DNA of 35,351 nt from Oscillospiraceae bacterium (GTDB taxonomy: Bacteria; Bacillota; Clostridia; Oscillospirales; Ruminococcaceae), in contig JAFQBT010000031.1 in assembly GCA_017399625.1 (NCBI GenBank), positions 1-35,351 of the forward strand, given 5' to 3'. The stretch's first letter is position 1; each line of letters starts with the position of its first letter. This document shows, in pieces, positions 4,556 through 11,561 of the stretch. The translations under genes and the position numbers were made by a program. A model generated the notes under the pieces. That model was not told the origin of the DNA and made no database searches. It saw only the letters and a program-made list of their open reading frames with translations.

Positions 4556-5090
4556 CCCCGGCAAAAAATGCCCTCTGCCGTGGCTAAGTAGTAAGAAACA
4601 TATTTTTCAAAAGTTTTCGGCCAAACGGCATTTTTATCCGCAGTGGATAAGTGGGAGGACAGAAAAAACTTCTGCTCTTTTTTGAGCGAAAGGGGGGGTG
4701 ATTCGGATGGATTTTCCGCTTATAGGCAGAGGATTGCGGAAAATTTTGAGTTTCATTGAAAAAACGGCACTCTCATGTCCGGTGGGTAGTGGGGGTTGAC
4801 ATTTCTCCTATGTAAACGGGGGCAGCAGAAATTTCATATAAAAATATGAATTTCCTTCGTCAAAACGCGCCACCCATCTCCAAAGAGGAGTAGAGGGAAG
4901 AAATTTTCAAGATTTTGGGGACCAACCGAACTTCTCATGTCCGGTGGTAAGTGAGGAAAGAAGTTTTTCCGAATTTTTTCCCAAACGGCATTCTCATCCG
5001 CAGTGGTGGGTGTAAGAAGAAATTTTTCTAAACCTTCGTCAAAACGGCTCCTTGCTGACCAAGTGCCAACTGTAAGGGGCAACACAAAAT
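4556..5090. repeat. Degenerate ~60-bp direct-repeat tract upstream of the replication gene (candidate origin)
   Basis: This ~550-bp stretch has no convincing gene. It holds about seven imperfect copies of a unit resembling AAACGGCAttCTCAT-CCGcaGTGG-TAAGTG-GGAAGAAATTTTTC. Units begin near 4564, 4623, 4761, 4862, 4923, 4983 and 5041, so several lie 58-61 bp apart. Two core versions recur exactly: ATCCGCAGTGG at 4636-4646 and 4996-5006, and ATGTCCGGTGG at 4775-4785 and 4937-4947; CCAAACGGCATT recurs at 4621 and 4981. One copy forms a small hairpin (TTATCC-GCAGT-GGATAA). AT-rich T-runs separate the cores. Its position just before the primase-helicase gene suggests iterons of a replication origin, an inference from P4-type elements where the replication protein recognises repeats near its gene. 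An array of small structured RNAs is the alternative. Confidence 0.6.
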
Positions 5091-5108
5091 CGAAAGGAGG
5101 CACACACA

Positions 5109-7427
5109 GTGCAAGTTCAATTAGAAAAAATACCGCAGTACTTAAAGGACAACGGTCAGTTCTGCAACTGGAAATATGAACTGCGGGACGGCAGCCAGAC
5201 CAAAGTGCCATATATGCCGGGGACAACACGCAGAGCCAGCGTGAGCGACCCTGCCACCTTCACAGCCTTTGAAACTGCGGCATCCGCAACAGGCTATGAC
5301 GGCATCGGCATCCGTGTCCACGGGAGGATCGTGGGTATCGACCTCGACCACTGCATCGAGGAGGACAAACTGCTCCCTTGGGCGCAGACCATCGTAGACA
5401 GCTTCGGTGTGACCTATATCGAGGTCAGTCCCTCCGGCACAGGGATCCGCATCTTCTGTCTACTGCCGGACGGCTTCACCTACGATACCAAAACCTACTA
5501 CATCAAGAAGGGTGACATCGAGGTCTACATCCCTGGTCACGCCAACCGATTCCTCACCGTCACCGGCAACGCCCTCACGGAGAATGATGTAGTGGAAACG
5601 GCCGAATCTCTCGTCTGGCTACTCGACACCTATATGCGCCGTCCTACACCGCCTACTCCGACTGTGGCTGTTCCCGGCGAAAGCTACCTCAGTGATGAAG
5701 CAGTCATTGCCAAAGCCACTGCTGCCCGGAATGGCGAGAAGTTCCGCAGGCTGTGGGATGGGGACATTACCGGCTACAAGAGCCAGAGCGAAGCGGATGC
5801 CGCCCTCGTTGCTACGCTGGCATTCTGGTGCAGCGGTGACAAGGCGCAGATGGACAGGCTGTTCCGGCAGAGTTGCCTGATGCGTGAGAAATGGGATGAG
5901 TACCGTGGAGCGGACACCTACGGCAACATCTCCATCGAAAAAGCGGTGGCTCGGATGACCGACTACTACAAACCCATCATCCCACGCTCCGCTGTCGAGG
6001 ACTTCGGTGTGGATCGGCTGAAGGAACTTGACCCTATGGACTCTTCCAAGTACCCGTGGAACGACATAGGTGCCGGTCACATCTTCGCGGACTTCTACCA
6101 AGACCAACTGCGCTATGTGCCGGAGCGGAAGATGTGGTTTTACTACGAGGACGGCATCTGGCAGCCAGACACCGGCAATCTCCGAGCCATGAAATACTGC
6201 ATGGAACTGGCAGACCTCATGTACACCTTCGCCCTTGAGATTCGGGATGAGGACAAACGAAAGTCCTATATGAAATATGCCAGCCGGTGGCAGAGCCACT
6301 CCAATCGGGTCAACATCCTCAAGGATGCCCAGGTATATCATCCGATCCCGTATGGCAGTTTTGATGCGGATATTTACATCTTCAACTGCAAGAATGGCAC
6401 TCTGCATATCGACACCGGGGAATTCACCGAACACTGCAGTGCCGATCTCCTCACAAAAATCAGTCCCGTGGTGTATGACCCAACGGCTTACTCGGAGCGT
6501 TTCGCTACCTACATTGACGAGATTATGAGCGGTGATGCTGACCGGGCGAAGTTCCTGCAGAAGATACTCGGCTACGGCCTTACCGGGGATACCCGCCACG
6601 AGTGCATGACCATCCTCTACGGAGTGACCACACGCAATGGCAAGGGCACCCTCTGTGAGAGCGTACTGAAAGTTCTCGGAGATTATGGCTGTGCCTCCCG
6701 CCCGGAGACCATTGCTATGAAAAGCTATACCAACGGCTCACAGCCCAGTGAGGATGTGGCTCGGCTTGCCGGTGTCCGCTTCGTGAACATCCCGGAGCCT
6801 GGAAAAGGGATGGTGCTGGATGCCGCCAAGGTGAAAGCCATGACCGGCAACGACACCCTCAATGCCCGTTTCCTACATGAGAACAGCTTCGATTTCCAAC
6901 CTCAATTCAAGATCTATGTGAACACCAACTTCCTGCCGGTCATCAACGATATGACCCTGTTCTCCAGTGACCGCATCATCATTATCCCGTTTGACCGACA
7001 TTTCGATGAGCGGTCCCGTGACACCACACTGAAACGCCGCTTTGCCGAGGAGGGTGTCCAGAGTGCCATTCTCAACTGGCTGCTTGAGGGATACCGCTTG
7101 CTCCAGAGTGAGGGACTGTTTCTCCCCAAATCCGTGAAGGATGCCACTGACCGCTATCAGCACGACAGCGACAAGATGGCACTGTTCTTTGAGGACAACC
7201 TCGTGGCGGACGAGGCAGCCGAGGAACTGACCTCCACGGTCTATGCCCGGTATAAGGGATGGTGCCAGGAGAACGGCAGCTACACGGAGGGCATGAAAAA
7301 CTTCAAGCAGGGTCTGCAGGCTTTTGCCCAAGTAGTCCGCAAGCGCCCCAAGTACGGCGGTGAGAAAACCACGATGCTCATCGGCTATCGGCTCATTTCC
7401 GAGTTCGATGCTCCGCCGCTGACATAA
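5109..7427 (+). CDS. Phage/plasmid-type replication protein: AEP primase fused to D5-family SF3 helicase
   Basis: A 772-aa protein likely to prime and unwind the island's DNA. The N-terminal archaeo-eukaryotic primase module (about residues 1-190) shows GIDLDHC (D78, D80) for metal binding, SPSGTGIRIF (107-116) and KGDIEVYIPGHANRFLTVTG. A helical linker follows. The helicase part (about 350-720) has the D5_N-like FNCKNGTLHIDTGEF and a Walker A GVTTRNGKGT at 505-514, a P-loop like the GxxxNGKS/T of P4 and poxvirus D5 helicases. The C-terminal tail may be a winged-helix DNA-binding domain. The start is GTG at 5109, after AAAGGAGG at 5093-5100. It is the first gene of the rightward operon and follows the repeat tract. 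Such proteins are typical of satellites, plasmids and integrative elements rather than host replication. Confidence 0.92.
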   Translation: MQVQLEKIPQYLKDNGQFCNWKYELRDGSQTKVPYMPGTTRRASVSDPATFTAFETAASATGYDGIGIRVHGRIVGIDLDHCIEEDKLLPWAQTIVDSFGVTYIEVSPSGTGIRIFCLLPDGFTYDTKTYYIKKGDIEVYIPGHANRFLTVTGNALTENDVVETAESLVWLLDTYMRRPTPPTPTVAVPGESYLSDEAVIAKATAARNGEKFRRLWDGDITGYKSQSEADAALVATLAFWCSGDKAQMDRLFRQSCLMREKWDEYRGADTYGNISIEKAVARMTDYYKPIIPRSAVEDFGVDRLKELDPMDSSKYPWNDIGAGHIFADFYQDQLRYVPERKMWFYYEDGIWQPDTGNLRAMKYCMELADLMYTFALEIRDEDKRKSYMKYASRWQSHSNRVNILKDAQVYHPIPYGSFDADIYIFNCKNGTLHIDTGEFTEHCSADLLTKISPVVYDPTAYSERFATYIDEIMSGDADRAKFLQKILGYGLTGDTRHECMTILYGVTTRNGKGTLCESVLKVLGDYGCASRPETIAMKSYTNGSQPSEDVARLAGVRFVNIPEPGKGMVLDAAKVKAMTGNDTLNARFLHENSFDFQPQFKIYVNTNFLPVINDMTLFSSDRIIIIPFDRHFDERSRDTTLKRRFAEEGVQSAILNWLLEGYRLLQSEGLFLPKSVKDATDRYQHDSDKMALFFEDNLVADEAAEELTSTVYARYKGWCQENGSYTEGMKNFKQGLQAFAQVVRKRPKYGGEKTTMLIGYRLISEFDAPPLT

Positions 7428-11471: not shown

Positions 11472-11502
11472 CCGGATTTCTCCAAACTATGCCGATATTT
11501 TT
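11462..11502 (+). terminator. Intrinsic terminator of the recombinase gene
   Basis: ATCGGCATAG (11462-11471, containing the stop codon) pairs perfectly with CTATGCCGAT (11487-11496), 15-nt loop, followed by ATTTTT. Confidence 0.85.
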
Positions 11503-11561
11503 CCAAGGAATAAAATCCCTTAGTGAGACACCCTTTCGGGCTGCTTTTTTCCATTTATTCA
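11503..11561. other. Probable island/chromosome junction (candidate attachment-site remnant)
   Basis: This 59-bp interval separates the recombinase terminator from the stop codon of a chromosomal gene on the other strand. It contains an imperfect dyad AAGGAAT-AAA-ATCCCTT (11505-11521), the kind of short symmetric sequence that serine recombinases use. Codon use changes on either side. The exact core cannot be set because the other end of the island is outside the window. Confidence 0.4.

Follow-up and report, generated by a model that had tools for sequence, protein, structure and literature searches.

A mobile element of Clostridia with a delta-less capsid gene beside a cos-like site: a probable cos-packaged phage satellite

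The window analysed here, a stretch of 35,351 nucleotides, is contig C15 of an Oscillospiraceae genome (assembly GCA_017399625.1; 2.1 Mb in 146 contigs, 87% complete) and holds part of a mobile element in which a short capsid gene lies beside a cos-like site. The rightward arm of the element, on the forward strand, encodes a primase/D5-type (P4/D5) helicase (5109 to 7427; phrog_1829, E 4e-149), a zinc-ribbon protein (7644 to 7928; weak matches, none above a curated cut-off, position conserved in relatives), two small proteins (p73, 7942 to 8163, and p70, 8183 to 8395, each with its best start behind AAGGAGG), a delta-less HK97-fold capsid protein of 313 amino acids (8409 to 9350; Phage_capsid, E 1e-68, residues 44 to 310), a TnpW-like protein (9499 to 9684, with a putative start in a frame that is longest from 9367; PF14202, E 6e-7), and a large serine recombinase (9810 to 11471; Resolvase, Recombinase, Zn_ribbon_recom, and DUF4368). 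The cos-like site, a homologue of the phage HNH-terS junction, occupies 9391 to 9486 on the same strand, and degenerate direct repeats of families D1 to D3 upstream of the primase gene (4590 to 5052) form a candidate replication origin. Family searches found all the genes that a preliminary description, made from the sequence alone, had named in this module, and p73 and p70, which it took for paralogues, are paralogous with 98% probability in a profile comparison.

The element extends beyond the window. Two same-genus genomes (G399 and G407) keep its neighbour on the right but lack the island, and across from that neighbour they carry a nitroreductase-like gene (identified by motif); since this gene sits on contig C12 of the window's own genome, the left part of the element was traced to C12. 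The first 13 bases of C12 are the reverse complement of the first 13 of the window, and the hsdR frame is continuous through this overlap (1069 codons from stop to stop). The element therefore runs from position 3203 of C12 through the 13-bp overlap to position 11533 of the window, 14,723 bp in all; the extent first proposed, 4556 to 11561, takes in the rightward module and not the whole. The right end (11514 to 11533) repeats the left end (C12:3203) imperfectly and in inverted orientation. Recombinases about 96% identical to that of the window occur in four relatives (L003, from Neglectibacter timonensis SN17, L004, L005, and L006), and all five loci share sequence, with small variations, up to ...AATCCCTTAGTGAGACACCC and diverge beyond it. 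Portal, protease, terminase, and tail genes, which the preliminary description had not seen and whose discovery farther left it said would make the island an ordinary prophage, were looked for with Pfam and with PHROGs (the latter without HsdR and the AbiJ-like gene), and none was found across the 14,723 bp. This absence holds for the whole delimited element because its left part was found on C12, and an ordinary prophage was rejected on these grounds. The nitroreductase-like gene beside the insertion (C12:3222-3838) is split over two frames, by a frameshift or an assembly error.

Adjoining the right end is the right half of an interrupted terminator-like target site with a TTT core (11534 to 11552). 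Joining the window's flanks yields a hairpin resembling an intrinsic terminator (-20 kcal/mol over 50 nt), which 6 of 2000 random stretches equal in stability; the corresponding numbers are 0 (L004), 0 (L005), and 2 (L006) of 2000, all control stretches having been drawn from the window and a few loci and not from each host. The TTT core lies within the hairpin loop in these four. With 25 nt joined per side, four of six target sites are exceptionally stable; that of N. timonensis needs longer flanks, with which 14 of 2000 random stretches are as stable, against 66 for L132 and 25 for L090. The Bacillus target site resembles these by eye yet forms a weak hairpin, matched or exceeded in stability by 1552 of 2000 random stretches. 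Because seven of the eight inspected insertion sites form clear terminator-like hairpins, this family of serine recombinases appears to use terminator hairpins as its target.

The capsid proteins of this element and its relatives lack the delta domain of about 90 residues present in their phage relatives. In the element genes a start lies at, or no more than 18 residues from, the point where alignment with phage capsids begins, and it usually follows a strong, AAGGAGG-like ribosome-binding site; some have additional in-frame ATGs upstream without a ribosome-binding site, and L097 is a fragment. By comparison, an in-frame ATG lies 85 to 164 residues before that point in 27 of 29 phage homologues, the other two being L055, which is cut by a contig end, and L056. 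The early impression of a short capsid protein with almost no delta domain was thus borne out, and the start of the element proteins would correspond to the mature N-terminus. In a tree of 46 rows, from which the Bacillus protein was left out, the 18 element proteins form one clade (100/97; 100% of 200 bootstrap trees), and the row L056/L148 (a site plus a short capsid gene in unknown context), labelled phage, falls outside it. The gene is under purifying selection, with ratios of nonsynonymous to synonymous substitution (dN/dS) of 0.069 and 0.133 in the two closest pairs by a simple Nei-Gojobori estimate, for which many distant pairs are saturated. L148 (G314:C99, the same place as L056) is a 5-kb contig with the site beside a short capsid gene whose product is 32% identical, and may represent a second, independent orphan short capsid gene.

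The preliminary description had proposed predicting the structure of the 8409-9350 product alone, and the AlphaFold model (mean pLDDT 79.8; residues 82 to 96 and 101 to 111 unsure) matches HK97-fold capsids. Its best predicted fold matches are the capsid of the Rhodobacter gene-transfer agent and then that of EcCI2 (9gyi), a capsid-forming phage-inducible chromosomal island (cf-PICI); the SaPIbov5 procapsid entry 7rwz stands at rank 31 with 12% identity, and the first entry named encapsulin at rank 36. A short HK97-fold protein without a delta domain, with encapsulin-named entries from that rank on, could be a domesticated shell serving as an encapsulin-type compartment, as the preliminary description had also suggested. 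We find this scarcely credible. The closest relatives of the protein are phage capsid proteins, none of its 27 sequence matches in the PDB (profile search, E<=1) is named encapsulin, and there is no sequence kinship with encapsulins; moreover, no metabolic enzyme gene adjoins the capsid gene, the only neighbouring enzymes being the DNA enzymes of the element itself, and a cos-like site is attached to it.

That site is a stretch of about 95 nt; it came to light as about 76 nt of conserved noncoding sequence beside the capsid gene. A blastn comparison of the window copy with phage genomes gave seven records (best 85% over 81 nt, E 2e-17), and one of the copies in N. timonensis, the left one, gave 12; at least one of the 12, which spans 22 nt and comes from a Pseudomonas phage, is likely due to chance. 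Together these are 17 distinct phage records, nine of which were inspected. In all nine, a gene of about 180 codons borders the site, and in four a tiny annotated frame overlies it; the bordering gene encodes TerS in all five cases tested (phrog_83, E 1e-30 to 1e-37). The opposite side carries an annotated HNH endonuclease in six of the nine; of the remainder, L140 has an unlabelled gene there, and two Streptococcus phages have no adjacent HNH gene. In HNH-encoding cos phages, such as staphylococcal cos phages, cos is expected between the HNH gene and terS. By homology and position, the site is a phage-type cos region, at which cleavage is predicted. Three site-carrying phages (PV036447, PV036458, and PV036439) are also within the best 30 capsid-protein matches listed.

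Models of the site recover it reciprocally. Trained on the nine phage sites alone, a model detects the window copy with E 1e-21 and picks up the site in every one of the 28 element capsid loci, including the Bacillus copy, which lies in the gap between primase and capsid genes (E 1e-21); a model built from element sites alone recovers nine of nine phage sites, and shuffled loci give no matches. The capsid gene stands on the terS side of the site in all 28 loci, some of which are near-identical and one of which, L148, is of unknown context. A prophage of N. timonensis, a strain that also carries a satellite, has a site absent from model training between HNH-like and TerS-like frames (judged by eye). 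This co-resident prophage was rejected as the helper, its site not being the closest to the strain's satellite copies. A sequence model run over 394 genomes of the order located 26 sites, spread over 21 genomes. TerS and HNH both stand beside 13 of these, one of the two stands beside another two, seven sites lie at element capsid genes, and four belong to three elements that bear a recombinase and in which no capsid homologue was seen among the frames searched. Since the training set of this model included some of these elements, the remaining sites alone are independent. The ~95-nt site has no match in Rfam, and it was treated as a DNA site because its consensus RNA fold has no pairs. An exact pattern scan of IMG/VR returned no match, with patterns judged too strict because a like pattern with three mismatches also missed the window copy.

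The three elements without a visible capsid homologue combine the site with primase-like and serine recombinase genes (L178:3773-3939, L179:9705-9792, and L180:9679-9766), and L178 has two inverted, overlapping site copies. Such elements are possibly satellites that would use full-size helper heads.

The preliminary description had further proposed searching other Clostridia for the same gene order. Capsid-protein scans gave 10 loci in a genome collection and 20 in IMG/VR, of which L010 and L022 to L029 have delta-bearing, phage-like capsid genes. The element loci are of two kinds, one with a single large serine recombinase, as in the window, and the other with a serine recombinase pair after the capsid gene (L002, L007 to L009, L012 to L015, L017 to L021, and L030). 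The capsid cassette moves between the kinds, for N. timonensis, of the first kind, shares 95% identity in its capsid protein with L013, of the second. Gene order and boundaries are kept in several genomes and in Bacillus, and seven intact elements from Clostridia and one Bacillus plasmid measure 14,723, 14,044, 14,655, 13,825, 13,654, 13,492, and 13,378 bp (ends of L132 and L090 set by eye; the decayed L004, 7,804 bp, excluded). The conserved order and boundaries, intact frames, purifying selection, and matching ends make a decayed prophage remnant very improbable, even with a single head gene in the element and with some copies decayed (L004 and L109).

Taken together, these features suggest that the element is probably a cos-packaged phage satellite whose sole head protein redirects the capsid assembly of a helper phage, by analogy with Ccm of SaPIbov5, a Staphylococcus aureus pathogenicity island (SaPI). 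Judging from protein families, the serine recombinase would excise the element from the terminator hairpin and the primase-helicase would replicate it, presumably from the repeat region. The helper may be a phage of the group that GenBank records call Ca. Heliusvirales, or a related one, and its HNH endonuclease and terminase would cut and package the element at the element's own cos site. The delta-less capsid protein would join the portal, protease, and capsid protein of the helper to form a small head fitting 13.4 to 14.7 kb, and such heads, as with Ccm, would also starve the helper. Two routes to such a particle can be envisaged: the delta domains of the helper may suffice, since the vertices alone would be replaced, or the capsid protein may act after delta removal.

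The closest precedent is the cos-type SaPIs (SaPIbov4 and SaPIbov5), which are likewise islands of about 14 kb with a phage cos site and a single homologue of a phage capsid protein. They carry a tyrosine integrase, whereas the present element has a serine recombinase, a terminator-like target, defence cargo, and hosts among Clostridia and Bacillus. In such SaPIs a helper protein lifts a repressor, and the helper brings about induction and transfer; on this point the element shows the Cro/C1-type regulator at the head of its divergent arm. According to passages of PMC5052747 and PMC8569155, SaPIbov5 combines its ~14 kb and phage cos with the capsid homologue Ccm, and in its T=4 procapsids, as described in part of PMC8569155, Ccm forms the pentamers and the helper protein the hexamers. 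The precedent bears in a mixed way on the earlier suggestion that this is a satellite making its own small shell. The satellite part agrees with the cos site beside the capsid gene and with a size near that of one small head. The other part, that the whole satellite head is built from the element protein with helper portal, terminase, and tail alone borrowed, would suit a protein lacking what a protease would remove and top fold matches to a gene-transfer-agent capsid and a cf-PICI capsid; against it stand the lack of any recognisable encoded scaffold or delta domain, the inability of Ccm to form capsids alone (in passages of PMC5052747 and PMC8569155), and the Bacillus element, whose primase and capsid genes are annotated with no small gene between them that might encode a scaffold. 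We therefore regard a self-sufficient shell as unlikely.

Several points weigh against a Ccm-like satellite or limit that interpretation. Besides the make-up of the capsid tree, the approximate dN/dS values, the uneven hairpins with their shared controls, and the training overlap and capsid-less elements in the 394-genome survey, Ccm itself retains a delta domain (residues 1 to 87, in a passage of PMC8569155) and needs the helper capsid protein. The element protein, in contrast, has none and shows no detectable sequence link to Ccm, 7rwz being reached by fold alone and no chain named Ccm appearing among the 27 PDB matches. No second site was found in the window's own genome, at 87% completeness and with filters that lose weak matches, so that no resident helper was seen. 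A phage whose capsid protein is a 38% relative (L010/L026) has no site in the 20 kb covered, and hence some kindred phages could not serve as helpers; most of the remaining phage capsid loci end before terS is reached. Constraint is weak in some close pairs for p73 (dN/dS 0.54) and for a third small gene, p84 (0.53 to 0.59).

Other satellites differ further. The cf-PICIs also have their own capsid, and that of EcCI2 is among the best fold matches; they encode a capsid protein, protease, portal, connectors, terminases, and HNH (as listed in a passage of PMC10690885), whereas the element encodes the capsid protein alone, the portal, protease, connectors, and terminases not being found. Mulch and Flayer, satellites of Streptomyces phages, carry capsid genes as well, within a full head and packaging set and without key replication genes according to the same paper (PMC10690885), so that the head and replication gene sets are reversed in the element. 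P4-like satellites also have a P4-type primase-helicase, and PMC9122126 describes antiviral hotspots in this group; P4 itself is not known to make a capsid protein of its own. EfCIV583, considered as another satellite with its own capsid gene, was dropped from the comparison, since according to PMC6893505 it has no recognisable one. Since defining features of both SaPIs and cf-PICIs were looked for in it and not found, the element is filed as a variant of the capsid-homologue cos satellites, neither SaPI nor cf-PICI. No such satellite family in Clostridia or Bacillus was found in the parts of the literature searched, which comprised open-licence papers. If the satellite interpretation holds, capsid-homologue piracy as in staphylococcal cos SaPIs would reach Clostridia and a plasmid of Bacillus, in elements that replicate and integrate with other genes and whose capsid protein lacks a built-in scaffold. 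The minimum of head parts that a satellite must encode to alter head size would become a testable question, and the site model would describe the likely packaging site of a little-studied group of gut phages.

Some relatives, unlike cos SaPIs, have two cos types. Two inverted copies of the site flank p70 and the capsid gene in five elements (L003, L005, L006, L013, and L088; in L003 at 9651-9746 and 10980-11079). In a tree of 48 sites, the right copies and the sole copy of the window group (100/99) with those of the phages NatCom_11393, NatCom_3357, and NatCom_9287. The left copies lie outside that group and by identity are nearest to NatCom_35866 and a G181 prophage. A single common clade of left and right copies is rejected by the approximately unbiased (AU) test (p 0.02), a value to be read as mild because the groups were named after inspecting site kinship. 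The pattern points to two separate acquisitions, each from a different phage, and the two site types possibly serve two helper classes. In the window, the left site was lost or never present. The wider picture, of widespread satellites in Clostridia and Bacilli with a delta-less capsid as sole head gene, some hedging between two helper classes by means of two cos types, is offered tentatively, as falling a little short of an even chance; a strategy of two cos types would apparently be new.

The divergent left arm, on the reverse strand, is headed by a Cro/C1-type regulator (4205 to 4423; PF13443, E 8e-17), with relatives in the same place in L003, L005, L006, and L151, so that a small regulator of this kind heads the left arm in five of five elements. 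It is followed by HsdM (2555 to 4177; PF02384, E 6e-83), HsdS (1444 to 2574; PF01420, E 5e-7), an AbiJ-like protein of the candidate defence family PDC-S32 (512 to 1432; PADLOC, E 1e-125; Pfam AbiJ_NTD4, E 1.5e-8), and the 5' part of hsdR (1 to 340, start not fixed), which continues at C12:2-2683 (REase_I, E 7e-254 for the C12 part). A DUF6809 protein is encoded on C12 between hsdR and the left end. The cargo varies: Type I restriction-modification (R-M) and the AbiJ-like PDC-S32 in the window, Type II R-M with Shedu and PDC-S50 in N. timonensis, Type I R-M in L005, Type III R-M in L006, and an annotated Type III R-M with an AAA ATPase on the Bacillus badius plasmid pPM400. These variable left arms agree with the earlier view of the divergent R-M operon as defence cargo, and the host would gain R-M and further defence genes from the arm, so that such gene sets would be tied to a particle-borne vehicle if the element is indeed a satellite.

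Defence as the remaining cargo also fits a capsid decoy, in which the delta-less protein would poison the assembly of infecting phages as a dominant negative and the cos site would be a decoy or relic; Ccm expressed alone lowers helper titre according to a passage of PMC5052747. An arms race of this sort would be expected to make the capsid cassette diverge more than the primase and recombinase, as it has done by far within the first kind of element. Between the window and N. timonensis, identity is 65% for capsid, 45% for p73, and 54% for p70, against 92% for primase and 96% for recombinase, with synonymous distances of 0.9 for the cassette, 0.65 for primase, and 0.40 for recombinase. A decoy, however, could do without a cos site conserved in one orientation (28 of 28), without its own replication, and without a narrow total size, and we consider it improbable beside a packaged satellite.

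Some minor features of these elements were also recorded. The gene p84, between the primase and zinc-ribbon genes, occurs in 11 of 16 inspected loci, some of them cut off; in the window (7600 to 7644) it is seemingly deleted, its first codons alone remaining. Record MT838964 was considered as a possible sequence from purified particles but not used, the accession being unnamed in the searched passages of two candidate papers, PMC8361208 and PMC8844717. The element on pPM400, a large plasmid of the soil bacterium Bacillus badius NBPM-293, is a minimal one (L151:1581-14958), without annotated small genes from primase to capsid, and offers a tractable carrier. At L129:13530-15260 (G159:C2), a recombinase 95% alike has two in-frame stops, and the interior from primase to capsid is replaced by other genes.

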